Part shown: positions 7,243 through 23,460 of the stretch, in pieces | Numbering within the stretch: the first letter of the stretch is position 1 | How the letters are laid out: each line of letters starts with the position of its first letter | Assembly: GCF_021390675.1 (NCBI RefSeq) | Contig: NZ_JAJEJV010000004.1 | Coordinates: forward strand, 3,472,001-3,536,000 | Source of the DNA: Dyella sp. 2HG41-7 | GTDB taxonomy: Bacteria; Pseudomonadota; Gammaproteobacteria; Xanthomonadales; Rhodanobacteraceae | Reading direction: 5' to 3' | Length of the DNA stretch: 64,000 bases | Program-made: the position numbers and the translations under genes | Notes under the pieces: model-generated | Databases searched by the model: none | Told to the model about the DNA's origin: nothing | Seen by the model: only the letters and a program-made list of their open reading frames with translations

Positions 7243-7414
7243 GAAGCACCCCGGCTTTGGTACGTGCGTGGAGGCATGGACGATCTCCCCGTGGAATGCA
7301 GTTGTTCTACACGTTGCGACGTATGCATACCACTGCCGGAAGCTTGTTCCGGTTGCCGCCGCGAGCGCCACGCATGGGCGCTCGCTTCGAAGTCCAATCC
7401 GATGCGGGCGCGAA

Positions 7415-8758
7415 TCACGCCTGCGAGATCAATCCGTAGCGTTCCATGCGCCGATAAAGCGCCTGGCGCGACAAGCCCAGCGATTGAGCCGCGCGGCTTA
7501 CCACGCCATCGGCGCGATGCAAGGCCGTTTCCACCACTTCGCGACTGGGCTCGTCGAGATTGCGCACCGCCGCCGCGCCCGCGTGTTGCGGCAGATTGAG
7601 CTGCTCGGGCGTGATCGGACCGCTACCCGCCAACAGCGCCGCGCGTTCGATCGCGTTCTTCAACTCGCGCACGTTGCCCGGCCACGGATACGTGAGCAGC
7701 GCCTCGCGTGCGGCATCGTTGAGTTCTGCGCGGCCTGCCAGAAAGAAATCGGCCAGCGGCAGAATGTCGTCGATCCGCTCGGACAGCGGCGGCAAGTTCA
7801 CGTCGATCACGTTGAGCCGGTAATAAAGATCTTCGCGGAACGTACCGGCGCGAATCATGCCTTTGAGATCGGCGTTGGTGGCGCTCAACACGCGCACTTT
7901 CACCTTGCGCGTGCGTCCGGAGCCAAGTCGTTCGAACTGCCCGGTTTCTAGCACGCGCAGCAGTTTCATCTGTCCCGGCAACGGCAGATTTCCGATCTCG
8001 TCGAGGAATAAGGTGCCGCCGTCGGCAAGCTCGAAACGTCCTTCGCGCGCTTTGTTCGCGCCCGTATACGCACCGGCGTCAGCGCCGAACAGCTCCGCTT
8101 CGATCAGCTCGCCCGGCAACGCGCCGCAGTTCACGGCGATAAATGGGCCGTCCTTCACCGACGAATTGGCATGCACGATCGCCGCGATGCGCTCCTTGCC
8201 CGAGCCGTTGGGGCCGGTGATCAACACCGGCACATCCGAACGCGCCACCTGGCAGGCGAGATCGATGGTGCGCGCCATCGCTTCGGAGGCGAACACCAAG
8301 CCATCCAGCTCGTATTTGCGCTGCAAGGCGTCGCGGCGCTTGCGGCGCTCCTGACGCGTGCGATTGACCTCGCGCGTGGATTCCGACAGCTCCAGCAGGT
8401 TCTCCACCGTCGCCAGCAGCTTGGAGTCGTCCCACGGCTTGGCGAGGTAGTCGGCGGCGCCGGCCTTCACCAATTCCACGGCCGTTTCCAGATGCGTCCA
8501 CGCTGTCAGCAAGATGACAGGCAGATCGGCGTGCGCTTGCCGGATATCGCGAAACAGGGTCACGCCTTCTTCGCCTGACGTGGTGTCGGCCGTGAAGTTC
8601 ATATCCTGAATGACCACATCGACGGATTCGCGCCCCAGCATGGCCAAGCCCTCGTGCGGCGTCAGCGCCACCAACGGGCGTACGTCGTGCAAGGACAGCA
8701 GCAGCGAGAGCGCCTCGCCTACGGCAGGGTTGTCGTCGATGATCAGTACGGTACGCAT
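7415..8758 (-). CDS. NtrC-family sigma-54-dependent response regulator
   Basis: The product is 447 aa. The receiver domain (1-120) carries phospho-site D52 (VVIQDMNF) and K107. The AAA+ sigma-54 activation domain has a Walker A GPNGSGKE (182-189), the sigma-54 contact loop GAYTGA (229-234, Tyr instead of the common Phe), and Walker B LFLDEIGN (250-257). A Fis-type helix-turn-helix at the C-terminus ends in SRAAQSLGLSRQALYRRMER. It activates sigma-54 promoters, and the obvious target is the perfect sigma-54 promoter ahead of the adaptor gene at 22623. The start at 8758 gives the normal receiver N-terminus MRTVLIIDDNP. Confidence 0.93.
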   Translation of the reverse strand: MRTVLIIDDNPAVGEALSLLLSLHDVRPLVALTPHEGLAMLGRESVDVVIQDMNFTADTTSGEEGVTLFRDIRQAHADLPVILLTAWTHLETAVELVKAGAADYLAKPWDDSKLLATVENLLELSESTREVNRTRQERRKRRDALQRKYELDGLVFASEAMARTIDLACQVARSDVPVLITGPNGSGKERIAAIVHANSSVKDGPFIAVNCGALPGELIEAELFGADAGAYTGANKAREGRFELADGGTLFLDEIGNLPLPGQMKLLRVLETGQFERLGSGRTRKVKVRVLSATNADLKGMIRAGTFREDLYYRLNVIDVNLPPLSERIDDILPLADFFLAGRAELNDAAREALLTYPWPGNVRELKNAIERAALLAGSGPITPEQLNLPQHAGAAAVRNLDEPSREVVETALHRADGVVSRAAQSLGLSRQALYRRMERYGLISQA

Positions 8759-8874
8759 TCGTTTCCTACACATGCGGGCATAGATGCCGCTCCCGCCCAA
8801 AAGGTTGCCATGCCCAATGGCCTACGTATACGGCGATGAGTCATGGAACCCAAAAAAACACACGTAACAACGTG

Positions 8875-10053
8875 TTAGCGGTCACGTGAAACCTCTGCCG
8901 GCGCGGCGTCGCCAGCGGCCTGAGCCAGCGGCAGCGCGTCGTTCACGAGATGCGTCAGAAAACGGCCCGGCTGCTCCTGCATCACCATATGCGCGGCGTC
9001 GGCGAAAATGACCAGTCGTTTGGACGGGGCCTGCAGCTTGTCGAACCATTGTTCGGCGAGCTCGTGCGAGGTGGTTTCGTCATGCGCGCCCACAAACAGG
9101 ATCACGGGGCACTTGAAATGCGTCGTGTTGTCGAAATCGACGTCGATAACGGACGCCATCAGATGATGGATGGTGAACGCGCTGCCTTTGTCGATCGCAT
9201 CCAGTTCTTGTTGGCTGTAATCCGGCGACAGCGTCTCCGCATCGGAATCGAAACTGTAGTTCTGCCGACCAAACGCCAGACCGCCGTAAAACATTTCCCA
9301 CTTGCTGCGCACGCCAAGGCGGTCGAGCGTCAAGGGCGCCGTGCCGGGATACGGCGCAATGCCTTTCAGTTCCGCGAGCGCTTTCGCATTGCCGCTCGCT
9401 TGAGCCTCACGCAGCGCAAAGCCGTAGCCGATTTCCTCATTCCGGCGCACATTCACCACCTGCCCCACACCGATATAGGCGTAAAGCCAGTCGGGATGCT
9501 GTTGCGCCAGACGTGTGCCCAGCACCGTGCCCCACGAATGTCCCAGCACGAAGATTTTTTGCTTGTGGTAATGCTCTCGCAGATATTGCACTACCTGCGC
9601 TGCATCGTCCGTCATGCCTTCGATGGTCATGCCCGGCGCCATGTTCTGTTCGCTATTGGCCGCGTACGTCTTGCCTGCCCCGCGTTGATCCCATTGCACA
9701 ACGGTGAAGTAATCCTCCCATGAGGATTGATAGGTGTAATCGTCCGGCATGCTGGGCGATGCCGGACCGCCATGCAGCATCAGCAAGATGGGATTGCGAC
9801 GATCCTTGCCGCGGATCGACAGCCACTGATCGATGCCGTTGATCGGCACCTTCACCATCTCGTCGACGCCGTTGGGCGTCACGATACGGCGGCTGTTGGC
9901 GATGATCGCGGTGACTTCCGCTCGCGTCATCGTTTGCGGCTTGTTTTGCGCGTTCGCGTCATCGTGCGACGTGTTCGCGGCATACAGCGGAGCCATGACG
10001 GCAGCGGCGACCAACCACGTCGCGCACCAACGAACCCTTCCAAATAACGGCAT
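8875..10053 (-). CDS. Secreted alpha/beta hydrolase, proline iminopeptidase-like (S33)
   Basis: This 392-aa protein starts with a signal peptide (RVRWCATWLVAAAVMAPLYA), so it acts in the periplasm or outside. The hydrolase core has the oxyanion segment LMLHGGPASPSM (about 92-103), WDQRGAGKT, and the nucleophile elbow GHSWG with S173. An acidic residue in VGAHDETTS and a histidine in FADAAHMVMQ complete the triad. HGGPG...DQRGxGxS signatures mark the proline iminopeptidase/S33 group, which removes N-terminal residues from peptides. It lies 35 bp after the last permease gene, so it may process or detoxify the exported compound (inference). The start at 10053 follows AGGGAG. Confidence 0.85.
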   Translation of the reverse strand: MPLFGRVRWCATWLVAAAVMAPLYAANTSHDDANAQNKPQTMTRAEVTAIIANSRRIVTPNGVDEMVKVPINGIDQWLSIRGKDRRNPILLMLHGGPASPSMPDDYTYQSSWEDYFTVVQWDQRGAGKTYAANSEQNMAPGMTIEGMTDDAAQVVQYLREHYHKQKIFVLGHSWGTVLGTRLAQQHPDWLYAYIGVGQVVNVRRNEEIGYGFALREAQASGNAKALAELKGIAPYPGTAPLTLDRLGVRSKWEMFYGGLAFGRQNYSFDSDAETLSPDYSQQELDAIDKGSAFTIHHLMASVIDVDFDNTTHFKCPVILFVGAHDETTSHELAEQWFDKLQAPSKRLVIFADAAHMVMQEQPGRFLTHLVNDALPLAQAAGDAAPAEVSRDR

Positions 10054-10088: not shown

Positions 10089-11321
10089 TTACGCCGACCG
10101 CGTCGCGACAATCGGTGGCACATCGGCCGCGCGCAAGGCCGGCCATAGCACCGATGCCTGACTGATCAGCCAAAGCAACGCAGCGCCTACGGGCAAATAC
10201 ATCGTCGGCAAGCGTGGCAATTCGTAATGCAGCATCAAATAAATATTGATGCCGTAGGCCAGCATCATGCCCAGACCAATACCCATCGTCGCCAGCAAAA
10301 AGTTTTCTGTCTGGAAGTAATGCAGGATATGGGCGCGCGTCGCGCCCAAAGCCCTGCGCACACCGATGCTGCGCCGACGTTGCGCTACCCAGAAGCTCAC
10401 CAGACCAATAATGCCGAGCGCATTCACCACCAGCAGCGCCACGCAGACCGACACCAGAATGCCCGCCATGGCGATGTCATCCTGAAAAAAATCGCGCCGA
10501 ATGTCATCGAGCGTGCGTTGACGTATGACAACGCGCTCGGGATCGGCACGCTTAAGAGCGGCCACGGCTGCTTTGAGAACTTCCGCGCGCTGCTGCGGAT
10601 GAGTGCGTATCACATAACTCTGGTCCTTCCCCACACCCATATGCAGAGGAAGCACCATGGAATATTGCGCTGTTTCGTCCTTATAGGGGTTGGCGCGCGC
10701 CAAACCCTGCACGACGCCGATCACGCGCGCGCCGAAACTTTGGGTCAGATAGATGGTTTTGCCCAGCGGATCTTGCCCCGGCCACAAACGGTCGGCGAGG
10801 GGCCGAGTGATGATCGCAATGGCGGGCAAAGATCTGGTATCGCCACTGCTCAATGCTTTGATGGCGGTGTCCGCGTCGATATATTCGGACGCTGTGAAAT
10901 CGCGCCCTTCCACCAGGCGACTACCCAACGCCTGAGTAATATTGTCGCCGAAGTAGCTGCCCGCCCTTAACGTGGGTTCGTGTTGATTGGCGTCGAGCCG
11001 AATATTGACGTTCGAAGACGATCCGGCGAACGGGACCTGATTGGTCTGGCCCACCGCTTGCACGCCGGGAATTTGCCGAAGGATGGCAAGGTCTTCCGCC
11101 GCGCGTACGTACCTATTGTCAGTATTCGCCACATCGGCCACTTGCACCTGCAGCACCTCGTGCTCGGCAACGCCGCTTTGCATATGCATATGGTGAAGAC
11201 GCAAGCCGATCAGAAAGATCGCGTTGCAGACAATGGCGCAGGTCAGCGCGATCTGCATGATCAACAACCATGCCGTGATCTTGTGCCTGCGCAGCGTCGA
11301 AAGAATCGGACGGATTTCCAT
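10089..11321 (-). CDS. MacB/FtsX-type ABC permease, B-type, copy 1
   Basis: The product is 410 aa. One N-terminal membrane helix (ITAWLLIMQIALTCAIVCNA) is followed by a periplasmic MacB_PCD-like domain (about 45-285) and three C-terminal helices of the FtsX domain. The conserved cytoplasmic loop is RRRSIGVRRALGATRAHILH. It has no ATPase domain and must rely on the operon's ATP-binding protein. It belongs to the B type (N-terminus MEIRPILSTLRRHK) and is paired with the A-type gene immediately upstream, 6 bp away. It most resembles B copy 2, for instance in the shared CAIVCNAIFLIG and GSSSN/DSSSN segments. Confidence 0.9.
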   Translation of the reverse strand: MEIRPILSTLRRHKITAWLLIMQIALTCAIVCNAIFLIGLRLHHMHMQSGVAEHEVLQVQVADVANTDNRYVRAAEDLAILRQIPGVQAVGQTNQVPFAGSSSNVNIRLDANQHEPTLRAGSYFGDNITQALGSRLVEGRDFTASEYIDADTAIKALSSGDTRSLPAIAIITRPLADRLWPGQDPLGKTIYLTQSFGARVIGVVQGLARANPYKDETAQYSMVLPLHMGVGKDQSYVIRTHPQQRAEVLKAAVAALKRADPERVVIRQRTLDDIRRDFFQDDIAMAGILVSVCVALLVVNALGIIGLVSFWVAQRRRSIGVRRALGATRAHILHYFQTENFLLATMGIGLGMMLAYGINIYLMLHYELPRLPTMYLPVGAALLWLISQASVLWPALRAADVPPIVATRSA

Positions 11322-11327
11322 GGCGCC

Positions 11328-12635
11328 TCACTGACTCTTCAACTGCAAGGCCGGCGCCACCTGGCACGCGCGCCACGCGGGCAACAGGCCCGCAATCACA
11401 CTGGCGCCGACCGCCAACGCGAGCGTGGTCGCCAGCATCGAAACATCCAAATGCGCAAGCGCGGCATAACTGGATGGACGATGTCGCACCAGCCACAAAC
11501 CGAACAAGGCAAGTCCAAGCCCCAATAGGCCGCCAAGGAGCCCCACTAAACCCGCCTCCACGATCAATTGCATAAAGACCGTGCGGCGGGATGCGCCCAG
11601 TGCGCGGCGCACGCTCAGCTCGCCGGCCCGCCGCAAGAATTTCGCCAACAGCAGACCGACGGTATTGACCAGGCAAACCATCAGAAAACCGAACGCGAGT
11701 CCGGTCTGCAAACGCACATCATCCGGAACCACTTGGTTGTAATCCAACCATTGCATGACATTACGCAAACGCACATTCGGCGCACGTTCGAATCGTCCCA
11801 AGGCGCGCTGCTGTTCGGAATAGTTCACCAGAAAGTTCCGATAGTCGGCCACCTTCTGCGGACTATCCAGTTCAATCCAGAACTGCAGCCACACGCACGT
11901 CTCCGACGGAAGCGTCGTGCCCACGCCACCGGTTCCATTACCCCAGCAATCATTCGAACCGTCGATGCTGAAGCCGGAATCGAAGGCAGTCAGCAGCGGC
12001 ACGAATGCCTGTTCGGCATAGTTGTAATCGCCGGTGTTGAGATCGTAGAAGTGAGGATTCGGAGACCAATCGTTGAGCACGCCAACGATGCGAAAATCTT
12101 TTTTCCCAATACGCAGCACGCGCCCCACGCTGTTTGCGCCAGCGAACAAACGGTCATTGAGTTTGCGGGCGATCACGACCACCCTCGCCTTGGCTTCGTC
12201 GTCGACACTGTTCCAACCGCCGCCAAACAAAAACGGCGTATCGAACATCGGAAAGAAATCGGCCGTGGTGTAACGCGCCTCGACGATAAACGGATCGAGG
12301 CCGGTCGATGACGGCATCACCGCCACCGCGCCACCCCTCATCAGTGCTTGCCGGTTGGCGCGTTTGGCGCGAAGAAGATTCAATCCGTCGATCAACGTTA
12401 CCTGAGTTGGCGGCTCCTTGCCGGAAAGGGTGCCGGTTGGATCGCGCGGATCGATTTGCGGGTAATACAACGAACCGCTGCGTCCGGGGAGCGGATCGCC
12501 CGACAGGACATGCAGCACCGTAAGCGTCGTCATGCTTGCGCCGATACCCACCGCGATCGCAAGCACCATCAGCATGGTGAGTACTTTGTTGTGCGTCAGG
12601 CTGCGCAAGCCCAAATCAAGGTAATAACGGAACAT
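11328..12635 (-). CDS. MacB/FtsX-type ABC permease, A-type, copy 1
   Basis: The product is 435 aa. The A-type N-terminus MFRYYLDLGLRSLTHNK leads to a membrane helix (VLTMLMVLAIAVGIGASMTT) and a periplasmic domain with SGDPLPGRSGSLYYPQIDP. Three C-terminal helices contain the conserved loop RRAGELSVRRALGASRRTVF. The periplasmic part has paired Cys residues (NDCWGN and SETCVW) that could form a disulfide. The start at 12635 follows AAGGGCA and matches the N-termini of the other three A-type copies; a longer reading to 12746 runs into the neighbouring gene. It is closest to A copy 2. Confidence 0.9.
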   Translation of the reverse strand: MFRYYLDLGLRSLTHNKVLTMLMVLAIAVGIGASMTTLTVLHVLSGDPLPGRSGSLYYPQIDPRDPTGTLSGKEPPTQVTLIDGLNLLRAKRANRQALMRGGAVAVMPSSTGLDPFIVEARYTTADFFPMFDTPFLFGGGWNSVDDEAKARVVVIARKLNDRLFAGANSVGRVLRIGKKDFRIVGVLNDWSPNPHFYDLNTGDYNYAEQAFVPLLTAFDSGFSIDGSNDCWGNGTGGVGTTLPSETCVWLQFWIELDSPQKVADYRNFLVNYSEQQRALGRFERAPNVRLRNVMQWLDYNQVVPDDVRLQTGLAFGFLMVCLVNTVGLLLAKFLRRAGELSVRRALGASRRTVFMQLIVEAGLVGLLGGLLGLGLALFGLWLVRHRPSSYAALAHLDVSMLATTLALAVGASVIAGLLPAWRACQVAPALQLKSQ

Positions 12636-12645
12636 GTGTTGCCCT

Positions 12646-13875
12646 TTACGCCGACCGTGTCGCGACGACCGGCGGCACCGCGGCCGCGCGCAACGCCGGC
12701 CCCAGCACGGCAGCCTGACCGATCGCCCACAGCAAGATCGCGCCAACTGGAAGATAGATGCCGGGCATGCGCGGCAACTCGTAGTGCACGATCAAAAACA
12801 GATTGATGCCATAAGCGAGCACCATTCCCAGCACGATGCCCATCGTGGTCAACAAAAAGTTTTCGGTCTGGAAATAATTGAGGATATTGCCGCGGGTCGC
12901 TCCCAATGCACGGCGCACGCCGATACTGCGATTGCGTTGCGCCACCCAGAAGCTTGCCAAACCCACAATCCCGAGCGCGGTGATGATCAACAATCCAAGG
13001 CTCACGCCGAGCAGAATGCCGGCCATCGAACGGTCGTTGCGGAAATAGCCGTACCGCAACTCGTCGTACGTACCCTTTTTGAGAACGATGCGGTTGGGAC
13101 CCAAATCCTTCAGCTTGGCCAGCGCGCTCTTCAGCACCTGCTCGCGGTCCTGCGGCGCGCAACGGATCACATATAGCGTGCCCGACGACATGCCGATACG
13201 GATCGGATCGATCATGCTGTATTGCATGCCTTCTTCAAAATTGCCGCCGCGCGCCAGTTGCTTGACGACGCCCACCACCGTCTCGGAAATATTCTGCGCG
13301 ACATAAACCTGCTTGCCGAGCGGATTCTGTCCAGGCCAAAGGCGCTCCGCCATTACCTGCGTGACGAGCGTGGAACCGGGCAAAGCGTGGTTATCGCCCC
13401 TGCGTAACATGGCGTACACATCATCCAGATCGCGATACTCGTCCGGACGAAAATCGCGACCCGCGACCAGTTGCACGCCGAGCGTACGCACCACGTCCTC
13501 GCCAAGATACTCGCCCGCGTTGATCACGTTGTTCCGTTGCATCGGATCGGTTTTGATGCCCGTATTGGACGAGGAATCGGCGAAGGGGATTTGATTGGTG
13601 GACATCGCCGATATCACGCCAGGGATTTCTTTCAGCGCGGCAATGTCGGCTGCGGTGCGCGCCATCGCGTCGGGGCGATGGCCGATATTGGCGAGCTGCA
13701 CGTAAACCAGTTCGTGCTCGGCCATGCCAGTGGAAACGTTCATGCGCTCCAGACGCTGACCGATCAAAAAGATCGCGTTGCACACGATGGCGCAGGTTAG
13801 CGCAATCTGCGCAATCAACAGGCAGGCGGTGAATTTGTGCCGGCGTAATGTTGAAAGAATCGGCTTGATGTCCAT
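12646..13875 (-). CDS. MacB/FtsX-type ABC permease, B-type, copy 2
   Basis: The product is 409 aa, with the B-type layout: MDIKPILSTLRRHK, one helix (CLLIAQIALTCAIVCNAIF), a periplasmic domain of about 230 residues, then three helices around RNRSIGVRRALGATRGNILN and YFQTENFLLTTMGI. It begins 1 bp after the stop codon of A copy 2, which suggests coupled translation and a working A-B heterodimer. N-terminal and C-terminal segments are nearly the same as in B copy 1, whereas the periplasmic domains differ more. Confidence 0.9.
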   Translation of the reverse strand: MDIKPILSTLRRHKFTACLLIAQIALTCAIVCNAIFLIGQRLERMNVSTGMAEHELVYVQLANIGHRPDAMARTAADIAALKEIPGVISAMSTNQIPFADSSSNTGIKTDPMQRNNVINAGEYLGEDVVRTLGVQLVAGRDFRPDEYRDLDDVYAMLRRGDNHALPGSTLVTQVMAERLWPGQNPLGKQVYVAQNISETVVGVVKQLARGGNFEEGMQYSMIDPIRIGMSSGTLYVIRCAPQDREQVLKSALAKLKDLGPNRIVLKKGTYDELRYGYFRNDRSMAGILLGVSLGLLIITALGIVGLASFWVAQRNRSIGVRRALGATRGNILNYFQTENFLLTTMGIVLGMVLAYGINLFLIVHYELPRMPGIYLPVGAILLWAIGQAAVLGPALRAAAVPPVVATRSA

Positions 13876-13876
13876 G

Positions 13877-15181
13877 TCAGTTCGCCTTCAGCTGCAGAGC
13901 GGGTGTGATGCGGCAGGCGCGCCATGCGGGCAGCAGTCCTGCCAACAAACTTGCTAACACTGCCAGCGTCAGCGTGGCGAGCAACATCGGGATATCCATA
14001 TGCGCCAACGCGGCGTAATCCGCCGGTTGATGCCGGACCAACCAAAGGCCGATCAAGGCCAATAGCAAGCCACCTACTCCACCCGCCAAACCGATAACGC
14101 CCGACTCGACCAGCAATTGCGCAAACAGCGCGCTCTGCGATGCACCCAGCGCACGACGCACGCCCAGTTCGCCGGCGCGACGCATGAACTTGGCCAGCAT
14201 CAAACCCACCGTGTTCACCAGGCACACCACCAGAAAACCCAGCGCCAGCCATACCTGCAACTTCGCGTCGCTCGGCACCACGCGTTGGTAATCCAGCCAC
14301 TGCATCACGTTGCGAAGGCGAACGTTAGGCGGTCGAAGAAACCGTCCGGCGGTGTGCTGATCTTCCGAATAATGCGTGAGAAACGCTTTGTACGCCGCAA
14401 CATCCGCAGGGCTATCGAGTTGCACCCAGAACTGCAACCACACGCAACTCAAGTGTTCCAGGTTGTTCGGGTCGCTGCCCGTACCGCCCCAACAATTCGT
14501 AGTGCCGTCGTGTTCCAGCTTCAAATCTCGCGATGTCGACAGCGGGATATAGACATCCTCGTCGCTGTCGTAGCTACCCATGTAGAGTTCGTAAAAATGC
14601 GGATTGGGATGCCAATCACCCAATACGCCCACGATGTGAAAACTCGCATCCTGCAGCCGCAGTTCCTTGCCGACGCTGTTCGCGCCGTTGAACAGCTTGT
14701 CGTTCAACGACGATGAGATGACTGCAATTCTTGCTTTCGCATCATCCTCTCCCGCACCCCAGCCTTGGCCAAACTTGAACGGCACGCTGAACATCGGAAA
14801 GAAGTCGGCCGTGGTGTAGAGCGACGCCGCCTGGAACGGATCGACGCTCGATTGCGTCGGCTGCAACGGCACCATCCCTTCCGTCATCAACGCTTGATGC
14901 GTCGCGCGCTTGGCCTTCAGCAAGTACATGCCGTCGGTCCAGGTGAGCTGATCCGGCGGCTCTACGTTGGGCCCGAAGTCGTCCATATCCTGCGGATCGA
15001 TTTGCGGGTAATACAGCGACCCGCTGCGACCCGGCAGCGGATCGCCGGAGAGCACATGCAGCACCGTCAACGTGGTCATGCTCGCGCCGATGCCCATCGC
15101 GATGGCAAGCACCATCAGCGCCGTAAGCACGCGGTTTCGCTGCAGGCTACGCAAAGCAAGACTGAAGTAGTAACTCAGCAC
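13877..15181 (-). CDS. MacB/FtsX-type ABC permease, A-type, copy 2
   Basis: The product is 434 aa. It starts with MLSYYFSLALRSLQRN and a helix (VLTALMVLAIAMGIGASMTT). The periplasmic domain shares SGDPLPGRSGSLYYPQIDP with copy 1, and the C-terminal FtsX domain has RRAGELGVRRALGASQSALF. Periplasmic Cys pairs (TNCWGG, LSCVW) are kept in the same places as in copy 1. The strong match to copy 1 shows that these two arose by a recent duplication relative to copies 3 and 4. Confidence 0.9.
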   Translation of the reverse strand: MLSYYFSLALRSLQRNRVLTALMVLAIAMGIGASMTTLTVLHVLSGDPLPGRSGSLYYPQIDPQDMDDFGPNVEPPDQLTWTDGMYLLKAKRATHQALMTEGMVPLQPTQSSVDPFQAASLYTTADFFPMFSVPFKFGQGWGAGEDDAKARIAVISSSLNDKLFNGANSVGKELRLQDASFHIVGVLGDWHPNPHFYELYMGSYDSDEDVYIPLSTSRDLKLEHDGTTNCWGGTGSDPNNLEHLSCVWLQFWVQLDSPADVAAYKAFLTHYSEDQHTAGRFLRPPNVRLRNVMQWLDYQRVVPSDAKLQVWLALGFLVVCLVNTVGLMLAKFMRRAGELGVRRALGASQSALFAQLLVESGVIGLAGGVGGLLLALIGLWLVRHQPADYAALAHMDIPMLLATLTLAVLASLLAGLLPAWRACRITPALQLKAN

Positions 15182-15206
15182 GGCATTCCCCTTGCACCTT
15201 GTTGGC

Positions 15207-16460
15207 TTACACCGACCGCGTCGCCACCACCGGCGGTACGTTGGATGCGCGTCGCGCAGGCACGAACACGGCGAGCTGCCCCAACAGCATCACGACCGCA
15301 AGTCCCACCAACACGTAATACACCGGCATGCTTGCCATCTCGAACTTGCTCATCAGCACACGATTCAATGCAATGGCGAGCCCGATACCGACGACCGCGC
15401 CTACACCGGCAATCATCAGATTTTCCATTTGGAAGTAATGCAAGATATCGACCTTGCGTGCGCCCAGTGCGCGACGCACACCAATCTGGCGATGGCGTTG
15501 TCCCACCCAAAAACTGGTCAGCCCGACAATACCTGCCGCAGTAACCGCCAGTAGAATCAGGCAGACCACGCCCATCAACACCGCCATGCCAACGTCGGCG
15601 CGATACGCTTCGGTGCGAATGTCCTTGAACGATTTGACGCTGTCGTCATCCAGCACGCGCATCGGATTGATCGAATAGAGCTTCGCCGGAATGGCGCGCA
15701 TCACGTCATTGAGCCGGCCCGGCTTGGTACGCACGGCATAACGCGAGAAATTGGAATTGAGACGAACCGGTTCGATGGTCGAATTCCATACGAAGGAGCT
15801 CGCCCAGCTGCTTACGGAAGGTACTTGCAGACGCTCGACTTCGCCGACGATCGTGCTCGGCGTGTTGGAGCCATCCATATAAACCACCTTACCGATCGCG
15901 GTACCCGTCGGGAACAATTTGTCGGCGAGCGCTTTGGAAACGATTACCAGATTCGCTTCACTGGGATCGCGAAAGCCTTTGTTGACGACATCGGCGGAGG
16001 TAAAATTCCGCCCGGCGACCAAATGCAGACCCAAAGTCGCCAGCAAACGTTCGTCACCGAAGTAGTACGTCGTTCGCGCATTGCCCGCGCGAAGTTCCGT
16101 GCCGGGCTTTAGCGACATCGCACCGTTCCAGCTCGACGGAAACAGCGGCAGCGTATTGACCGGCGTAACGGATTCGACGTCCGGCATTGCGCGCAGGGCG
16201 CTTAGATCTTCCTGCAACATCGCATCGAGCTTCTGGATGCTGGCCGCATCGTCGCCGCTCGGCGCGCCGACCCACTGCTGCGTGACCATGAAGAGGTTGT
16301 CCTCTTCCAGGCCGGTGGGGCGCTTCACGTTCTCGATGCGCGCGTAGATGATGAAGATCGCATTACAGACGATGGCCAGCGTCAATGCGATCTGCAAAGC
16401 GATCAGCACGACGCCCGCTTTGTGCTTGCGCAATGCCGCGATCATGGGATGCAAAGTCAT
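15207..16460 (-). CDS. MacB/FtsX-type ABC permease, B-type, copy 3
   Basis: The product is 417 aa. N-terminus MTLHPMIAALRKHKAGVVL, helix IALQIALTLAIVCNAIFII, periplasmic domain of about 235 residues, and a three-helix C-terminus with RHRQIGVRRALGARKVDILH. It shares with B copy 4 the stretch VLIALQIALTLAIVCNA, which copies 1 and 2 lack. I chose the ATG at 16460 because it aligns with the other B-type starts; the upstream reading to 16898 overlaps the whole end of A copy 3. Confidence 0.9.
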   Translation of the reverse strand: MTLHPMIAALRKHKAGVVLIALQIALTLAIVCNAIFIIYARIENVKRPTGLEEDNLFMVTQQWVGAPSGDDAASIQKLDAMLQEDLSALRAMPDVESVTPVNTLPLFPSSWNGAMSLKPGTELRAGNARTTYYFGDERLLATLGLHLVAGRNFTSADVVNKGFRDPSEANLVIVSKALADKLFPTGTAIGKVVYMDGSNTPSTIVGEVERLQVPSVSSWASSFVWNSTIEPVRLNSNFSRYAVRTKPGRLNDVMRAIPAKLYSINPMRVLDDDSVKSFKDIRTEAYRADVGMAVLMGVVCLILLAVTAAGIVGLTSFWVGQRHRQIGVRRALGARKVDILHYFQMENLMIAGVGAVVGIGLAIALNRVLMSKFEMASMPVYYVLVGLAVVMLLGQLAVFVPARRASNVPPVVATRSV

Positions 16461-16471
16461 GGCAGCGCTCC

Positions 16472-17797
16472 TTAGTTCGATTTCAGTTGCAGCGCGGGTT
16501 GCACGCGCGATGCACGGAAGGTGGGATACAGCCCGGCCAGCATGGTGGAGATCACCGCCACCAGCAGCGTAAGCGCCAACAAGCTGAAGTCGACATGGGC
16601 CAAGGTGGCGATTTCCTTGGGCAGCACCCAACCCACGCCGACGACGCCAACCCACGTCAACAACAAACCGAGCACGCCACCCGTCAAACCGACGGTGGCC
16701 GCCTCGATCAGGAACTGCGAGTAGATCGCCAAACGCGGCGCCCCCAACGCGCGGCGCACGCCGATTTCGGAGCTGCGGCGCAGGAACTTTGCCAGCAACA
16801 AACCGGCCGTGTTCACCAGGCAAACGATCAACAAACCTAGCGCCACCACCAACGACACCTTGGTATCGCTGGGCGCGACGTGCTCGCTCTCCAACCACGC
16901 GGGCAGATCGCGCAGACGGTTGTTCACGGGCCAGTTGAATCGACCGGCGGATTTTTGATCTTGGAAATAGCCATCCAAATAATCCTTATAGGAGGCTGCT
17001 GCCGCTTTGTCGTCCAGCTCCGCCATATAGGATATCCATACACACGACGATTGCTGCAGACCGACAAAGCCCGAACCTTTCGGAATTTCCGAACAGTTGG
17101 TATTGCCGTCGTTGGGCATGCCGACATCAATGGCGCGTGTAAAGGGCAGGAACACATCTTCTTGTTGGGTGGTGAATCCGCCCGTATTGACCACGTCGTA
17201 GAACACCGGCTTGGGATTCCAGTTGTCCAGCACGCCGATCACGCGGTAATCCTTGCCGTCCATGTTCAGCGTTTTGCCGACGCTATTGGCGCCAGCAAAC
17301 AGCTTCTGATTGAGCTTGCCACTGATCACCACTACTGCCGCGTGTTGCGCGTCGCTGTCCGCATTCCAGCCGCTGCCGTATTTGAAGGGCACGTCGAGCA
17401 TCGGGAAAAACTCGCCGTACACCGCATGACCGCCGACGTTGATCGGATGCATCGTCGGATCGGGCGGCACCACCGACGGCGACACACGATACATCGCCGA
17501 TTGGTTGCGCGCGCGATGCTGTTTCATCAGCGCGACGGCATCGGTGTAATCCATCGCATCCGGCGGCTCGTTGTTGTTGGTTTGATCCAGACGCCCTTTC
17601 GGCCCCCACATATCGATCTGGGGGACAAACAGCCGCGCGGATTTCCACGGAATCGGATCGCCCGACACCGCGCGGAACACCGAGTAGCTGGTCATGGACG
17701 CTGCCACGCCGAAGCCGACGATCAGGATCATCAGCAGGGTGAGCCCAGGGCTTCGTTTCAGACTTCGTATCGCCAGATCAAGGTAATAGCCCAGCAT
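16472..17797 (-). CDS. MacB/FtsX-type ABC permease, A-type, copy 3
   Basis: The product is 441 aa. It begins MLGYYLDLAIRSLKRSPG, followed by a helix (LTLLMILIVGFGVAASMTSY). The periplasmic domain has SVFRAVSGDPIPWKSARLFV, which groups it with copy 4 (SGNPIPEKSSQLFV) and away from copies 1 and 2 (SGDPLPGRSGSLYY). The FtsX loop is RRSSEIGVRRALGAPRLAIY. Periplasmic Cys residues occur at TNCSEI and QQSSCVW. It is paired with B copy 3, 11 bp downstream. Confidence 0.9.
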   Translation of the reverse strand: MLGYYLDLAIRSLKRSPGLTLLMILIVGFGVAASMTSYSVFRAVSGDPIPWKSARLFVPQIDMWGPKGRLDQTNNNEPPDAMDYTDAVALMKQHRARNQSAMYRVSPSVVPPDPTMHPINVGGHAVYGEFFPMLDVPFKYGSGWNADSDAQHAAVVVISGKLNQKLFAGANSVGKTLNMDGKDYRVIGVLDNWNPKPVFYDVVNTGGFTTQQEDVFLPFTRAIDVGMPNDGNTNCSEIPKGSGFVGLQQSSCVWISYMAELDDKAAAASYKDYLDGYFQDQKSAGRFNWPVNNRLRDLPAWLESEHVAPSDTKVSLVVALGLLIVCLVNTAGLLLAKFLRRSSEIGVRRALGAPRLAIYSQFLIEAATVGLTGGVLGLLLTWVGVVGVGWVLPKEIATLAHVDFSLLALTLLVAVISTMLAGLYPTFRASRVQPALQLKSN

Positions 17798-17845
17798 GTA
17801 CGCTTCTCCAAGATGTTTTCGTTCGTATCGAAAAACAGACGATCG

Positions 17846-19081
17846 TTAGGCCGGACGCGTTGCTTCGACCGGCGGTACACGCGACGCACGCAGGGCCGGC
17901 GCGAACACCGCACCCTGTCCAAGCAAAAGCAAAAGCGCGATGCCGCTCAGCACGTAAGTCAGCGGCAACAATTTCAATGCATCAAAATGCGTGACCAGCC
18001 ACAGATTGAGCCCGAACGTCAGCAGCACGCCGATGGCGATGCCGCCCAGGCTGATCAACAGGTTTTCCGTCATGAAGTAGTGCAGAATGTCGCGATGAGT
18101 CGCGCCCAACGCACGCCGCACGCCGATTTGCCGGCGACGTTGGCCCACCCAAAAACTGGTAAGGCCGACGATGCCCGCTGCTGTAATGGCGAGTAGCACT
18201 CCGCAAATGACGCTCATCAAAATCGCCATGCCGCGATCGCTTTCAAAGGCGCGACGACGAATTTCCGCGTAGCTGAGCAAGCCATCCTTGGGATCGATCA
18301 TGCGCATGCGATTTTCTTTGTAGAGCGCCTTAGGCGCGGCGCGCATCGCTTCGGCGAGCTGACCGGGTTTGGCGCGCACGACGTAGTAAAGCCCGAATGG
18401 CTCAGCCGGCCGGACCGGCACCACCATCGATTCGCCCGCATAAGGCTCGCTCCACGTTCCCACATCGCCGCGCTGCAATACGTCGACGATGCCGATCACG
18501 GTGATCGGATTAGGAGTCATGGCGTAGAAATGTTGACCGAGCGCATCGCCGTGCGGGAACAATTTGTCGGCCATCGCCTTGCTGATGATGGCGACGGACG
18601 GAACCACGGATTGCCTCAAACCCTGGTCGCGCACTTCTTCGGGCCTGAAGTCGCGTCCAGCGATCAGCTTCAGACCGAGCGTACGCACGAAATTGGCATC
18701 GCCCATGTAAAACGCCGCATCGCTCGTCGGAGCGCGCTGCTCTGGCGTCATGGTGATGAAGTTGTCGTTGCTGTTACCCCTGATCGGATAGTTGTTGGCG
18801 GTCGTAACATCCTGTACGCCAGGCACCTGCCGCAACGTAACAAGGTCTTGCTGAATTCGTTCCGCCGCTTCCTGCGTGGAGTACTGCTCGCCCCACTGGT
18901 TCCCGATCACAAACAAATTGGGTTCGTCGACGCCGCTGAGTTCGTTGATGTGCACCAGGCGCTGATGGATGATGAACAGCGCATTGCAAACGATGGCCAG
19001 CGTCAAGGCGATTTGCAAAGCGATCAAAACCGTGCCCGCCTTATGGCGGCGCAGTGCGGCGAGAATGGGCTGAATTTGCAT
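17846..19081 (-). CDS. MacB/FtsX-type ABC permease, B-type, copy 4
   Basis: The product is 411 aa. It starts MQIQPILAALRRHKAGTVL, with helix IALQIALTLAIVCNALFII, a periplasmic domain (about 45-285) and a C-terminal three-helix FtsX domain with RRRQIGVRRALGATHRDILH. It follows A copy 4 by 15 bp. It is the B-type gene closest to the ATPase gene and may reflect the original module. Confidence 0.9.
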   Translation of the reverse strand: MQIQPILAALRRHKAGTVLIALQIALTLAIVCNALFIIHQRLVHINELSGVDEPNLFVIGNQWGEQYSTQEAAERIQQDLVTLRQVPGVQDVTTANNYPIRGNSNDNFITMTPEQRAPTSDAAFYMGDANFVRTLGLKLIAGRDFRPEEVRDQGLRQSVVPSVAIISKAMADKLFPHGDALGQHFYAMTPNPITVIGIVDVLQRGDVGTWSEPYAGESMVVPVRPAEPFGLYYVVRAKPGQLAEAMRAAPKALYKENRMRMIDPKDGLLSYAEIRRRAFESDRGMAILMSVICGVLLAITAAGIVGLTSFWVGQRRRQIGVRRALGATHRDILHYFMTENLLISLGGIAIGVLLTFGLNLWLVTHFDALKLLPLTYVLSGIALLLLLGQGAVFAPALRASRVPPVEATRPA

Positions 19082-19096
19082 AGATGCTCCCTCGCC

Positions 19097-20407
19097 TCAG
19101 TTGGACTTCAGTTGCCAAGCAGGCTGCACTTGCGCGGCACGCCAGGCGGGATAGAACGCAGCCGCAACGGTGGCGAAGATCGCCAACGCCAAAGACAAAC
19201 CGATCAGCGATACATCCAGATGCGCGAGCCGCGCGATATCCGGTTCGAACAACACGCCCACGCCGGACATGCCAACCGCAGTGAGCAACAATCCAATCAA
19301 CCCACCCGCCAATCCGACCGCTGCAGCTTCGACCAAGTATTGAGCGTAGATTTCGTGGCGAGTCGCACCGAGCGCACGGCGCACGCCGATTTCTCCTGCC
19401 CGACGCATAAATTTGGCCAACAACAAACCGATCGTATTGACCAGGCAGATGACGAAGAAACTCAATGCCACGATCAGCGAAATGCGGCTTTCGGGCGGCA
19501 CCGTGTGTTCTACATCCAGCCATTTCATGACGTCGGGCAAACGTACATTCGGCGCCCACCCGAATCGGCCGGCGTGTTGCTGATCGGCCGAATAGCTTTC
19601 CAAGAATTGTCGATATCGCGCGACATCGCTCGCCGTATCCAGCTCCACCCATGGCATCAGCCAAATGCAGTTGCTTTGTAGATATTGATCCCAACCGTTG
19701 TAGGTAATCGCGCCACGGCAACTGTTTCTGCCCGCGTTATCGGTCTGCAGATCGAGCGCGCGATTGAGCGACAGATAAAAATCGGGCGGATTGTCGAAGC
19801 CGCCGCCTTCCCACGCATCGTAAAAGCGCGGCGAAGGATTCCAGCGTTTGGCGACGCCGACGATGCGATAGTCGTGTCCGGAAAGCGTGATTTTCTGGCC
19901 CACGCTGTTCGCGCCGCCAAACATGCGCTGATTGAATTCTTGACTGAGCACGACGTCGGGAGCGCGACCGTCGTCGTCGGCGTTGCTCCAACCGGCGCCA
20001 TAAAGAAACGGTACGTCGAACATCGGGAAAAAGTCGGCGGTTACCGCAAAACCGCTACTGGAGACCGGCACGCTATCGGCATCGCGCGGAAGCGTCGACA
20101 AACCGACCTGATAAATAAGCGTCATGCGCGATGCCTGATGCGCGCGCATCAGCGCCATCGCGTCGACATAGTTCAACGCACCCGGCGGCTCGCCCTTTTC
20201 ATTGAGTCCCGGCCCCCAGCTATCGATCTGCGGCACGAACAGCTGCGAGGACTTTTCCGGTATCGGATTGCCGGATACAGCGCGGAACACCGAGTACGTA
20301 ATCATCGACGCGGACACACCGAAGGCAATCGCCATCACCATCAGCGTGGTGAGCATGGGATTGCGCCGGAGGCTGCGTAGACCGAGCTGTAGGTAGTAGG
20401 CAAACAT
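19097..20407 (-). CDS. MacB/FtsX-type ABC permease, A-type, copy 4
   Basis: The product is 436 aa. It starts MFAYYLQLGLRSLRRNPM, with helix LTTLMVMAIAFGVSASMITY. The periplasmic domain contains SVFRAVSGNPIPEKSSQLFV and Cys residues at RNSCRG and QSNCIW. The C-terminal FtsX domain has RRAGEIGVRRALGATRHEIY. It is the first permease gene after the ATPase gene, separated by 91 bp that hold a REP-like hairpin. Confidence 0.9.
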   Translation of the reverse strand: MFAYYLQLGLRSLRRNPMLTTLMVMAIAFGVSASMITYSVFRAVSGNPIPEKSSQLFVPQIDSWGPGLNEKGEPPGALNYVDAMALMRAHQASRMTLIYQVGLSTLPRDADSVPVSSSGFAVTADFFPMFDVPFLYGAGWSNADDDGRAPDVVLSQEFNQRMFGGANSVGQKITLSGHDYRIVGVAKRWNPSPRFYDAWEGGGFDNPPDFYLSLNRALDLQTDNAGRNSCRGAITYNGWDQYLQSNCIWLMPWVELDTASDVARYRQFLESYSADQQHAGRFGWAPNVRLPDVMKWLDVEHTVPPESRISLIVALSFFVICLVNTIGLLLAKFMRRAGEIGVRRALGATRHEIYAQYLVEAAAVGLAGGLIGLLLTAVGMSGVGVLFEPDIARLAHLDVSLIGLSLALAIFATVAAAFYPAWRAAQVQPAWQLKSN

Positions 20408-20498: not shown

Positions 20499-21221
20499 TT
20501 AGCCGCGGATCTGACCGGCGGCAGCGGTGTACGCCGTGTGGAAGCGCGGATCTTCCGCAAGATCCACCACCTGGCCGTCGATGATGTGCACGTTGCGCTG
20601 CGCGCGTGCGGCGAGTTCCGGATCGTGCGTCACCATCACGATGGTGGCGCCCTCGCGATGGATTTCTTCCAGCAACTCCAGCACGCCGCGCGCCATTTGC
20701 GTATCCAGGTTGCCGGTCGGTTCGTCGGCGAGCAGAAGTCTCGGGCTGCCTGCGAGTGCGCGCGCGATGGCGACGCGTTGCTGCTGACCGCCGGACAATT
20801 CCGCCGGATAGTGACGCGCGCGCGATGCTAGGCCCACACGCTCCAACGCATTCATGATGCGCTCCTTGCGCTCCGCCGTTTTCATGCCGCGATAGCGCAG
20901 CGGCACTTCCACGTTATCGAACACGTTGAGATCCGGAATCAGGTTGAACGCCTGGAAGATGAAGCCGATCTTTTCGTTGCGGATCTTCGAGCGCGCGTTG
21001 TCGTCGAGATTGCTGACCGATTGACCGTCGAGCATGTATTCGCCGCCGGTGAAGGTTTCCAACAAGCCGGCGATGGTGAGGAAGGTGGTTTTGCCTGAAC
21101 CGGAGGGGCCGGTCACGGCGACGAACTCGCCTTCTTTCACGTCGATGTTGAAATCGCGTAGCGCATAGGTTTCCACCACTTCGGTGCGGTAGACCTTCGA
21201 GAGATGCGTCATCTTCAGCAT
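20499..21221 (-). CDS. MacB/LolD-type ABC transporter ATP-binding protein
   Basis: This 240-aa cytoplasmic ATPase powers the adjacent permeases. Walker A is GPSGSGKT (38-45), the Q loop is in GFIFQAFNL, the ABC signature is LSGGQ (142-146), Walker B is LLLADE (162-167) with the family extension PTGNLDT, and the switch His is in VMVTHD. It is the only ATPase gene for eight permease genes. It lies 130 bp after the adaptor gene; that gap contains an inverted pair of REP-like palindromes. The C-terminal extension after the switch is a little longer than in LolD. Confidence 0.95.
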   Translation of the reverse strand: MLKMTHLSKVYRTEVVETYALRDFNIDVKEGEFVAVTGPSGSGKTTFLTIAGLLETFTGGEYMLDGQSVSNLDDNARSKIRNEKIGFIFQAFNLIPDLNVFDNVEVPLRYRGMKTAERKERIMNALERVGLASRARHYPAELSGGQQQRVAIARALAGSPRLLLADEPTGNLDTQMARGVLELLEEIHREGATIVMVTHDPELAARAQRNVHIIDGQVVDLAEDPRFHTAYTAAAGQIRG

Positions 21222-21351: not shown

Positions 21352-22623
21352 TTAGCGGCTGATCACGACGCGCTGCGCGCCTTTGAAGTTGTCGGTACCG
21401 GAGATCACAATGTTGTCGCCTTCTTTCAGGCCATCGAGAATCTCCACTTTGTCGATGCTGCTTTCACCCGCGCGGATCGGCGTCTTGGTCGCCATGCCGT
21501 CGCGCACGACGTAGGCATAGGCGCCGCCGGATTCGTCGACGAACGAGCCGCGCTGCACAGTGAGTACGTTTTCGCGATGGTCGAGCAGAATGCGCACGGA
21601 CAGGCGCTGATTCTGACGAAGCTGCTTGGGTGTGCCACCTGCGAAGCGCACGCGCGCGGCGACTTCGCCATTGACCACTTCCGGTGAGATAGCGCTGACC
21701 AAACCTTTCCAATCGTTGCCGTTGCCGCTGATGTCGCCACCCATGCCTACGGCAAGATCGCGCGCGAAGCTTTCCGGCACTTTCACTTCCACTTCGAGCG
21801 CGGACAGATCGATCACGCTGAGCAATTGCGCGTCTTTCGCCACGGTGGCGCGTTCGGCGATAAACAGCTGGCCGACCTGGCCGTCCACTGGCGAACGCAC
21901 GTTGAGGTTGTCCACTTGGCGCTGCAGATCCTGCACCAGCAACACTTGACGATCGTGCGCGAGTTTTTTGGCTTTGATGGCGAAGTTGCCGCTGTCGCTG
22001 TCCAGATTGCGATCGGACTGCGCATGCGCCAAGGTGATTTGCGCCTTGGCCAGCGTGTCTTTGGCGCGATCCACTTCCATTTGCGGTACGCCGCCCAGGC
22101 TAAACGCTTTTTGATAGCGAGCGAGATCGCGCGCTGCGGTTTCTTCGTCGATCTTTGCGCTGTCGTACGCGTTCTGCATTTGCGAGCTCTTCTTGCGCGC
22201 ATCGACTTCGGCGCTCATATAGTCCACTTGCATCGCGTCGGCGTTGGATTCTTCTTGCGCGAGCTTGTTGACGAGTTCGGGACTGTCGATCACCGCCAGC
22301 ACCTGGCCTTTCTTTACCGTATCGCCGGCGTGCACTTTCAAGGTGACAGCGCCGCCGTAGGTGGCGTACATCGTAGGACTCACCGCGGCGACCACCTGAC
22401 CTTCCGCAGCGATATCGCGCACGAACGGTCCGCGTTCCACGGTAGCGAACGCAAGTCGCGACGCGCTCACCGACGATTCGGCCGAAAACATGCGAGCGAT
22501 GCCTGGCGCGAAGAAGCCGAGCACGACTACGCCGAGCACCGCCCCGCCGGCCCACAAGAGTTTCTTCTTGCGGCTGGGTTTGACCGCGATCAGGCGATCT
22601 TGGGCTGAAGTGTCACGAATCAT
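21352..22623 (-). CDS. HlyD/MacA-family periplasmic adaptor subunit
   Basis: The product is 423 aa. A short cytoplasmic basic N-terminus (PSRKKK) leads to one membrane anchor (about 25-45), a biotinyl-lipoyl-like domain (TYGGAVTLKVHAGDTVKKGQ), a long alpha-hairpin (about 115-230) with coiled-coil character, the second lipoyl half (VRSPVDGQVGQLFIAERATV), and a beta-barrel plus membrane-proximal domain. Such adaptors bridge a MacB-type inner-membrane pump to a TolC-like channel; no channel gene is in the window. It is the first gene of the efflux operon. The ATG at 22623 follows AAGGACT and lies about 35 nt after the predicted sigma-54 start site. Confidence 0.92.
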   Translation of the reverse strand: MIRDTSAQDRLIAVKPSRKKKLLWAGGAVLGVVVLGFFAPGIARMFSAESSVSASRLAFATVERGPFVRDIAAEGQVVAAVSPTMYATYGGAVTLKVHAGDTVKKGQVLAVIDSPELVNKLAQEESNADAMQVDYMSAEVDARKKSSQMQNAYDSAKIDEETAARDLARYQKAFSLGGVPQMEVDRAKDTLAKAQITLAHAQSDRNLDSDSGNFAIKAKKLAHDRQVLLVQDLQRQVDNLNVRSPVDGQVGQLFIAERATVAKDAQLLSVIDLSALEVEVKVPESFARDLAVGMGGDISGNGNDWKGLVSAISPEVVNGEVAARVRFAGGTPKQLRQNQRLSVRILLDHRENVLTVQRGSFVDESGGAYAYVVRDGMATKTPIRAGESSIDKVEILDGLKEGDNIVISGTDNFKGAQRVVISR

Positions 22624-22667: not shown

Positions 22668-22683
22668 AGCAATCCGCGTGCCA
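22668..22683 (-). promoter_or_regulatory. Sigma-54 (-24/-12) promoter of the efflux operon
   Basis: On the minus strand the sequence reads TGGCACG-CGGA-TTGCT, a full match to the published consensus TGGCACG-N4-TTGCW, with a T in front as preferred. The GC of the -12 element is at 22669-22670, so transcription should start near 22657, about 35 nt before the adaptor ATG. The operon itself encodes an NtrC-type activator. Confidence 0.88.
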
Positions 22684-22749: not shown

Positions 22750-22779
22750 TGTCCGCGGACACTGGCCGGACAGCGGACA
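22750..22779 (-). promoter_or_regulatory. Predicted enhancer (UAS) for the NtrC-type regulator
   Basis: A perfect 12-bp palindrome TGTCCGCGGACA lies at 22750-22761. It is followed by an imperfect copy CTGGCCGGACAG (22762-22773) and another GGACA half site (22775-22779). The centres are about -98, -110 and -120 from the predicted start, the usual distance for activators of sigma-54 promoters. Assignment to this regulator is inference from position. Confidence 0.6.
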
Positions 22780-22794
22780 GACGGCGATTCGCGG

Positions 22795-23364
22795 TCACGC
22801 CCGCAACGACGTCGATTCGGTTTGCGCGATGCGAGTGGCGACCTGCTGCCCCAACGTCGACAGCGACATGCCACGGTCTTGCTCAAACACTAACAAACCG
22901 ACCCATTCGCGCAGACGAAAGCTCACCACGCTCGCATTGTCGGCGCGTAGCGGCTGGATATCCATGGAAGCGAATCCATCGCGGTCCACCACACACGATG
23001 CCGTCAAGGCATCCCAAGCGAGATAGTCGGTATCGGGCAGCAGATGCCATCGCGCGCGCGTGCGGCCGAAGCGATCCACACATTCGCACCATTCGCGCGG
23101 GCCATCGCTGGTGACGGCGCTGATGGCGACAAGCCACTGCGCTTGAAGCAAGGGCGCGAACGCCGGATCCGAAATCAGTACGCCGGTCGACGCAACATCG
23201 AGTGCGTCGCGACGGGACGCGGCATGCAGATAAAGCACTGAGCCCAATCCTGGCAACAAGTCGACCAATGCATATGGCGTGATGCGTCGAACGCGACGAG
23301 AGACATGGTTCCGCGGAGCGCGGCGACCAAGCGTTGAGGAATGAGCGGCGAGCCAGCCGAACAT
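22795..23364 (-). CDS. Unrecognised protein downstream of hemP
   Basis: The product is 189 aa and I do not recognise a family. It has no clear signal peptide. Visible segments are ALVDLLPGLGSVLYLHAASR near the middle and WHLLPDTDYLAWDALTASC towards the C-terminus, with several Trp and Cys residues. It follows hemP on the same strand, so it should be in the same Fur-controlled unit and may have a role in haem or iron use (inference). I chose the ATG at 23364 because it has an excellent AGGAG 6 nt upstream. An alternative in-frame ATG at 23457, next to the hemP stop codon, would add 31 residues. Confidence 0.6.
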   Translation of the reverse strand: MFGWLAAHSSTLGRRAPRNHVSRRVRRITPYALVDLLPGLGSVLYLHAASRRDALDVASTGVLISDPAFAPLLQAQWLVAISAVTSDGPREWCECVDRFGRTRARWHLLPDTDYLAWDALTASCVVDRDGFASMDIQPLRADNASVVSFRLREWVGLLVFEQDRGMSLSTLGQQVATRIAQTESTSLRA

Positions 23365-23460
23365 GGCGATCTCCTGATGGAAGACCCGGCTGGCGTAAGC
23401 GAGAGCTTGCTGGCGAGAGGTATGGATAAAAACGCCGCTGCGAGGCAGAGCGGGCATGAA

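Follow-up and report, generated by a model that had tools for sequence, protein, structure and literature searches.

The window analyzed here, a whole 64,000-nucleotide stretch of the Dyella sp. 2HG41-7 genome, carries on its reverse strand an operon for a periplasmic adaptor, a separate ATPase and eight MacB/FtsX-type permeases of two alternating kinds, A and B. We put forward, with belief and doubt in roughly equal measure, that this operon forms the core of a sigma-54 regulon encoding a tripartite exporter, in which interchangeable A-B permease heterodimers work on one ATPase and one adaptor and small membrane peptides are the cargo. Sequence comparison establishes the promoter architecture that the operon has in common with remote permease pairs and with a family of peptide genes, and it is from there that the argument starts.

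The adaptor gene (21352-22623, minus strand, as are all window features below) is of the HlyD type (Pfam HlyD_D23; NCBIfam RND_mfp above cut-off). A sigma-54 promoter, TGGCACGCGGATTGCT (22668-22683), lies 60 nt upstream of its start, scores 15/15, the full consensus, under our own consensus weighting, and keeps the same position in relatives. The palindrome TGTCCGCGGACA (22750-22761), 78 bp further upstream, is proposed as the upstream activating site of an NtrC-type regulator. Of 27 adaptor promoters examined, 25 have it exactly and two, those of L044 and L046, lack it; the 27 exclude L007-L017, L019, L020 and L023 (mostly repeat genomes) and L041 (cut off). A good sigma-54 site was not found upstream of the adaptor in L017 and L041, the start being misplaced or the locus cut. 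Together with a response regulator that combines a receiver, a sigma-54 AAA domain and a helix-turn-helix (7415-8800; Response_reg, Sigma54_activat, Fis-type; start of the open reading frame, ORF, uncertain), the -24/-12 promoter and the upstream site point to an NtrC-type sigma-54 regulon, and this regulator probably binds the palindrome.

The palindrome occurs at five places in its own genome, against one for the reversed word: the adaptor operon, a solitary A-B pair, two loci with small MKFET ORFs, and pcm-tolC. At the solitary pair (L005) it lies 186 bp upstream and is followed by a sigma-54 site at the normal distance; the same combination precedes the MKFET peptide genes at L051:5570-5776 (-) with the next ORF (68 and 57 amino acids, aa) and at L052:6031-6117 (-; 28 aa). 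Three more 28-mers of this genome (L142-L144) have palindromes with one mismatch; L144 lacks a sigma-54 site where one would normally stand. Before pcm-tolC (C3:35811; L050:5812-8009, +) the palindrome is conserved at 14 of 15 tolC loci of Dyella and absent in G003, the genome with a single A gene.

A search of 41 genomes (our own and 40 relatives) for the combined pattern, with the palindrome required to be exact, gave 77 matches, spread over 24 of the genomes, and a reversed control pattern gave none in any of the 41. All sites were assigned: 40 to peptide genes, 24 to adaptor operons, 12 to permease genes (the B partner was read in eight, and in four the sequence ends after A) and one to a hydrolase like that of the window. 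BLAST and a peptide hidden Markov model (HMM) classed 75 of them, 22 as adaptor, while the other two (our own operon and one in G024) were placed with adaptor operons by position. In G018 (L077) a relative of the window hydrolase is preceded by a palindrome and a sigma-54 site of its own, and a PF00144 (S12-type) hydrolase lies downstream of the 28-aa peptide type in 7 of 17 loci, within the sequence examined. An independent check is provided by peptide genes found by protein profile: in 29 of 29 such genomes of family f1 the best peptide gene, or its tandem, has a palindrome (0-2 mismatches) and a sigma-54 site 77-81 bp apart, and 24 of these genomes lay outside the pattern search. The one match tested outside f1, in G129, has a peptide gene without this promoter. 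With up to two mismatches the palindrome is found 556 times in the examined loci (both strands), 143 of them with a sigma-54 site 60-100 bp on, figures that give no background rate, such sites having been the criterion by which the loci were selected. A later selection of 35 genomes included 27 from the sister family f2, picked for having an A gene; 18 of these carry the combined site, in every case at the adaptor promoter, and G171 has one more. The other eight genomes belong to f1, and of these G041 has an extra site before a DUF885 lipoprotein-like protein and G213 has one before a TolC-like gene. As to the outer parts of the exporter, the adaptor adjoins, and the outer-membrane channel, TolC, is linked by promoter sites only, no TolC gene being present in the operon. 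No ATPase was matched in the examined flanks of ten solitary pairs.

The peptides form a family of 27 to about 76 aa with the pattern MKFET..LF.AC..C...AM and one hydrophobic stretch. In 91 distinct hits of the HMM, which was built from 20 hand-picked peptides, E4 is present in 91, L8 in 90, M26 in 88 and C19 in 85. Conservation is quoted from this set because the pattern used to collect ORFs (86 ORFs) itself demands E4 and L8; it also misses longer starts of the MKLTE.. type. Among these 86 ORFs, all 37 peptides of at least 60 aa carry C..C near the end. Differences at codon positions 1, 2 and 3 number 505, 373 and 1385 for the 28-mers and 339, 188 and 585 for the 67/68-mers (related pairs counted repeatedly); third positions being the most variable, the peptides are probably coding. 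Four peptides that were scanned matched no Pfam family at E 10 and no NCBIfam model above its cut-off. When 200 genomes of the order were searched with the profile, peptides turned up in 29 of 34 f1 genomes, with two weak matches outside. Within f1 they occur in 26 of 26 sampled genomes with at least three A genes and in three of eight with two or fewer (Fisher p = 0.0002, uncorrected for kinship), so that five f1 genomes with one or two A genes have none by profile.

From the promoter, the operon runs adaptor, ATPase, A4, B4, A3, B3, A2, B2, A1, B1. The ATPase (20499-21221; ABC_tran), the sole one in the operon, is of the LolD/DarD kind, and directly after it come A4 (19097-20407), B4 (17846-19081), A3 (16472-17797), B3 (15207-16460), A2 (13877-15181), B2 (12646-13875), A1 (11328-12635) and B1 (10089-11321). 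A first-pass annotation of this array had described eight permeases in strict A/B alternation, each B partner 1-15 bp after its A gene; the ORF order at 10089-20407 (-) agrees, and the A-to-B gaps measure 15, 11, 1 and 6 bp (promoter-side module first), with 48, 25 and 10 bp between consecutive modules in the same direction. The motifs it quoted as shared by copies 1 and 2, and by copies 3 and 4, are there as given, while its N-terminal consensus for each type proved looser than claimed (B3, for instance, starts MTLHPMIAALRKHK).

Both A and B are MacB/FtsX-type permeases. BLASTP identity within branches is 63% for A1-A2, 57% for B1-B2, 50% for A3-A4 and 48% for B3-B4, and between branches (1,2) and (3,4) it is 45% for A and 36-42% for B; with E < 1e-70 throughout, the similarity is not due to chance. 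A Pfam scan of seven permeases (all but B3) found FtsX in 7/7 and MacB_PCD in A1-A4 and B4; MacB_PCD was not matched in B1 and B2 at E 0.001. An FtsX C-terminal membrane domain with a MacB-like periplasmic core places them in the MacB/FtsX (type VII ABC) superfamily. The AlphaFold models of A4 and B4 (pLDDT 80.5 and 88.4) have MacB as their best PDB match (5gko, then 5nik or 5xu1); LolCDE comes lower in the list, and BceB (ranked low) and YtrF are also present. Four long membrane-length helices were counted by eye from the DSSP output of these models. Seven permeases (B2 left out) were further scanned against ADOP (NCBIfam TIGR03434, "acidobacterial duplicated orphan permease", 803 positions). 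The A proteins align to its N half (5/7-401; 7-401 in A1, A2 and A3) at 144-189 bits and the B proteins to its C half (390/411-802; 390-801 in B3, 410-802 in B1) at 182-191 bits, against a cut-off of 622 bits. Given these half-matches and the MacB-like models, the description that suits the module best is that of a split ADOP, a putative built-in heterodimer predicted to work with a separate LolD/DarD-like ATPase.

Comparison with known systems supports a familiar superfamily in a new arrangement. ADOP has an N half followed by a C half, in the same order as A and then B; however, A and B are separate genes scoring 144-191 bits per chain against 622, rather than one fused protein of about 800 aa, and since the main A-B pairs have an ATPase and an adaptor they are not orphans, unlike ADOP. 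MacAB-TolC resembles the system in permease fold (5gko, 5nik) and adaptor, but in MacB ATPase and permease form one chain, whereas here the ATPase has a gene of its own, an A-B pair makes up the permease and the operon has no TolC. The first-pass annotation had taken the homodimeric MacB as its reference, which is fair, though the fused double permease ADOP and the heterodimeric LolCE are closer comparisons. LolCDE, which draws its substrates from the inner membrane, likewise combines a separate ATPase with two unlike permeases; here, in contrast, an adaptor is present, and the LolC/LolE models reach at most 37 bits against cut-offs of at least 362. By its sequence, a separate locus of this genome, L004, looks LolCDE-like. 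For the darobactin exporter DarBCD, the ATPase hits DarD best among the NCBIfam models, and the adaptor and two B proteins hit DarC and DarB, respectively, but all fall below cut-off (ATPase 259.6/375, adaptor 73.8/450, permease 20-26/700). Finally, the BceB permease of BceAB has about ten helices, against the four long helices of the A and B models.

The history of the modules can be read from separate A and B trees, each of 120 proteins (quick searches without bootstrap). Path distances in the two trees correlate at r = 0.92 over 119 modules, one duplicate module having been dropped, whereas 500 shuffles of the partners inside each array give a mean of 0.09 and at most 0.21. This agreement indicates that modules move as units. 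Both trees place copies 1 and 2 in one deep clade and copies 3 and 4 in another, as the first-pass annotation anticipated from its proposal that the pair duplicated once and then again in each branch. The deep ((1,2),(3,4)) pattern stands, but the local one-then-two history finds no support, the module types being common to several species. Orthologs in other species reach 89% identity for A4, 87% for A3 and 84% for A2, and the nearest relative of A1 is a module from another genus (72%). A solitary pair of the same genome, L002, has an A protein 57% identical to A4 and 54% to A3, more than A3 to A4 (50%), and a B protein 51% identical to B4 and 47% to B3, against 48% for B3-B4. A closer relative outside the array, which would count against duplication within it, is thus found for A3, A4 and B4, and not for B3 nor, within the own genome, for copies 1 and 2. 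Homologous operons hold from 1 to 7 A genes and one adaptor each, with an ATPase in 22 of the 23 adaptor loci L024-L046 (it was not found in L045, the only such case), so four modules in one operon are not the oddity they had seemed; A,B alternation is kept in every homologous locus examined for it. By these comparisons copies 1-4 belong to module types found across species and, in part, across genera, and the array was inherited and reshuffled, not assembled in place. A scenario in which a single heterodimeric MacB recently gave rise to four tandem copies that then diverged on the spot toward different substrates would account for the deep pattern of both trees, but module types common to species and genera, with solitary relatives falling between, lead us to reject recent local duplication. 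The greater divergence of the periplasmic domains relative to the membrane parts is real, yet orthologs show the same (A4: periplasmic 82%, TM2-4 92%), so it is no evidence of substrate specialization. As a local history this scenario is largely refuted, and we regard it as highly improbable.

Under the regulon reading, the histidine kinase (5866-7371; HATPase_c and HAMP above cut-off, PAS and HisKA below), predicted to have two membrane helices with a short outer loop followed by HAMP, PAS and HATPase regions, would phosphorylate the NtrC-type regulator. Its hydropathy peaks lie at 6-30 and 53-77 (numbering from MRIRSLEA), and the short outer loop suggests that it perhaps senses within the membrane. 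The phosphorylated regulator would bind TGTCCGCGGACA and activate sigma-54 promoters about 80 bp downstream, yielding the adaptor, the ATPase and the A-B array, remote A-B pairs without a nearby ATPase, and peptides of 27-76 aa that share a single conserved membrane helix, to which the long forms add an outer tail with two cysteines; certain genomes would also make a hydrolase under the same switch. Each A-B pair would form a heterodimer on the common ATPase, docking on the common adaptor and TolC; that one ATPase and one adaptor serve all pairs is something we infer. The peptides would insert into the inner membrane and then be pulled out by the fitting permease pair, some perhaps after trimming by hydrolases. 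The placement of the regulator gene inside the exporter cluster favors this scheme. Export as the role of the peptides might equally prove right or wrong; it leads because, according to PMC8277102, MacB-related pumps carry out Sec-dependent export of heat-stable toxins. A bolder version, in which a single sigma-54 regulator governs modular peptide secretion through an expandable set of interchangeable heterodimers, arrayed and dispersed, on a single ATPase and adaptor, and the cargo perhaps also signals to the intramembrane kinase in a self-inducing loop, we hold with considerably more reserve.

Several observations weigh against the scheme. A sigma-54 site was not found at the pcm-tolC palindrome, and the solitary pairs L001 and L002 have neither element, which excludes them as members of the regulon. 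Peptide and permease numbers do not track one another (G213 has ten peptides and three A genes, G087 one peptide and at least eight A genes), ruling out a one-to-one pairing of peptides with permease pairs. The 28-mers are almost entirely membrane helix and lack a tail. No sampled f2 genome matched the peptide profile although many keep the promoter on the adaptor operon; the exporter therefore does not need this peptide family. Together with the peptide-less f1 genomes with one or two A genes, this indicates, as far as the sequences go, that the exporter predates its association with the peptides. Conversely, G110 has a peptide gene and neither adaptor nor A gene at the thresholds used. There the palindrome and sigma-54 site (L163) face an ISL3-type transposase and then a kinase-like remnant, which suggests a later loss of the exporter, the peptide gene surviving at another locus.

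Could the peptides instead be accessory subunits that tune or stabilize the permease pairs, the real substrate being something else? AcrZ is such a small subunit of AcrB, and the conserved part of the family is precisely the membrane helix (E4, L8, M26 and C19 above), the 28-mers consist of little more, and the promoter type is common to peptide and exporter genes. On the other hand, the two-cysteine tail of all 37 long forms goes beyond the needs of a helical subunit, f2 exporters do without the family, and no peptide match lies inside the array loci L024-L046; we consider this explanation unlikely. We give much the same low weight to a defense against envelope stress or antimicrobial peptides, whereby the kinase would respond to a damaged membrane, the pumps would remove foreign compounds or defective lipids, and the peptides, instead of being cargo, would shield the membrane or serve as decoys or signals. 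The short outer loop of the kinase and the presence of BceB and YtrF among the fold matches fit such a role, as does the report, also in PMC8277102, that macAB is under PhoPQ in E. coli and Salmonella and that the related YxdLM is tied to cationic-peptide resistance. Nevertheless, a regulon that contains both hydrolases and a defined family of peptides points to the handling of peptides, and the helix numbers of A and B differ from that of BceB.

In the open-licence literature we found no description of the regulon or the peptide family, nothing on sigma-54 and ABC transporters in Dyella or on small membrane proteins or RpoN in Rhodanobacteraceae, and nothing under the ADOP name beyond PMC11573002. 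Orphan permease pairs without an ATPase otherwise have no obvious partner. Here a nearly unique promoter architecture links them to one set of adaptor and ATPase and to a family of small peptides, a testable answer to the question of partners, and the regulator binding site may offer a route to missing transporter partners in general. If the peptides are indeed cargo, Dyella and its kin would possess a family-wide peptide secretion system, for which the same literature yielded no named substrate.

Some further features of the cluster and genome deserve mention. Between B1 and the regulator gene lies an alpha/beta hydrolase of the proline-iminopeptidase kind (8875-10053; Hydrolase_4, pro_imino_pep_2 below cut-off). 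Relatives of the adaptor were found at 17 loci, 11 at 84-88% identity (ten named Dyella species and one differently labelled metagenome bin) and the other six at 67-77%. In an alignment by eye the hairpin of the window adaptor, RYQKAFSLGGVPQMEV, deviates from the RLS motif, the TolC contact of adaptors. Upstream of the promoter, a gene for 220 aa (22795-23457) adjoins the adaptor operon in many Dyella loci; it is less conserved (50-64% identity across the Dyella loci compared) and matched no Pfam family. The solitary pair L001 (L001:3597-8331, -) lies downstream of a long membrane protein that by eye resembles an M56/BlaR-type peptidase, and the pair at L002:5114-9725 (-) adjoins a putative histidine kinase and a putative regulator of the LytTR type, likewise judged by eye, perhaps another control circuit. 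Further MacB_PCD matches in the genome (L003, L004, L006) adjoin other ATPases.

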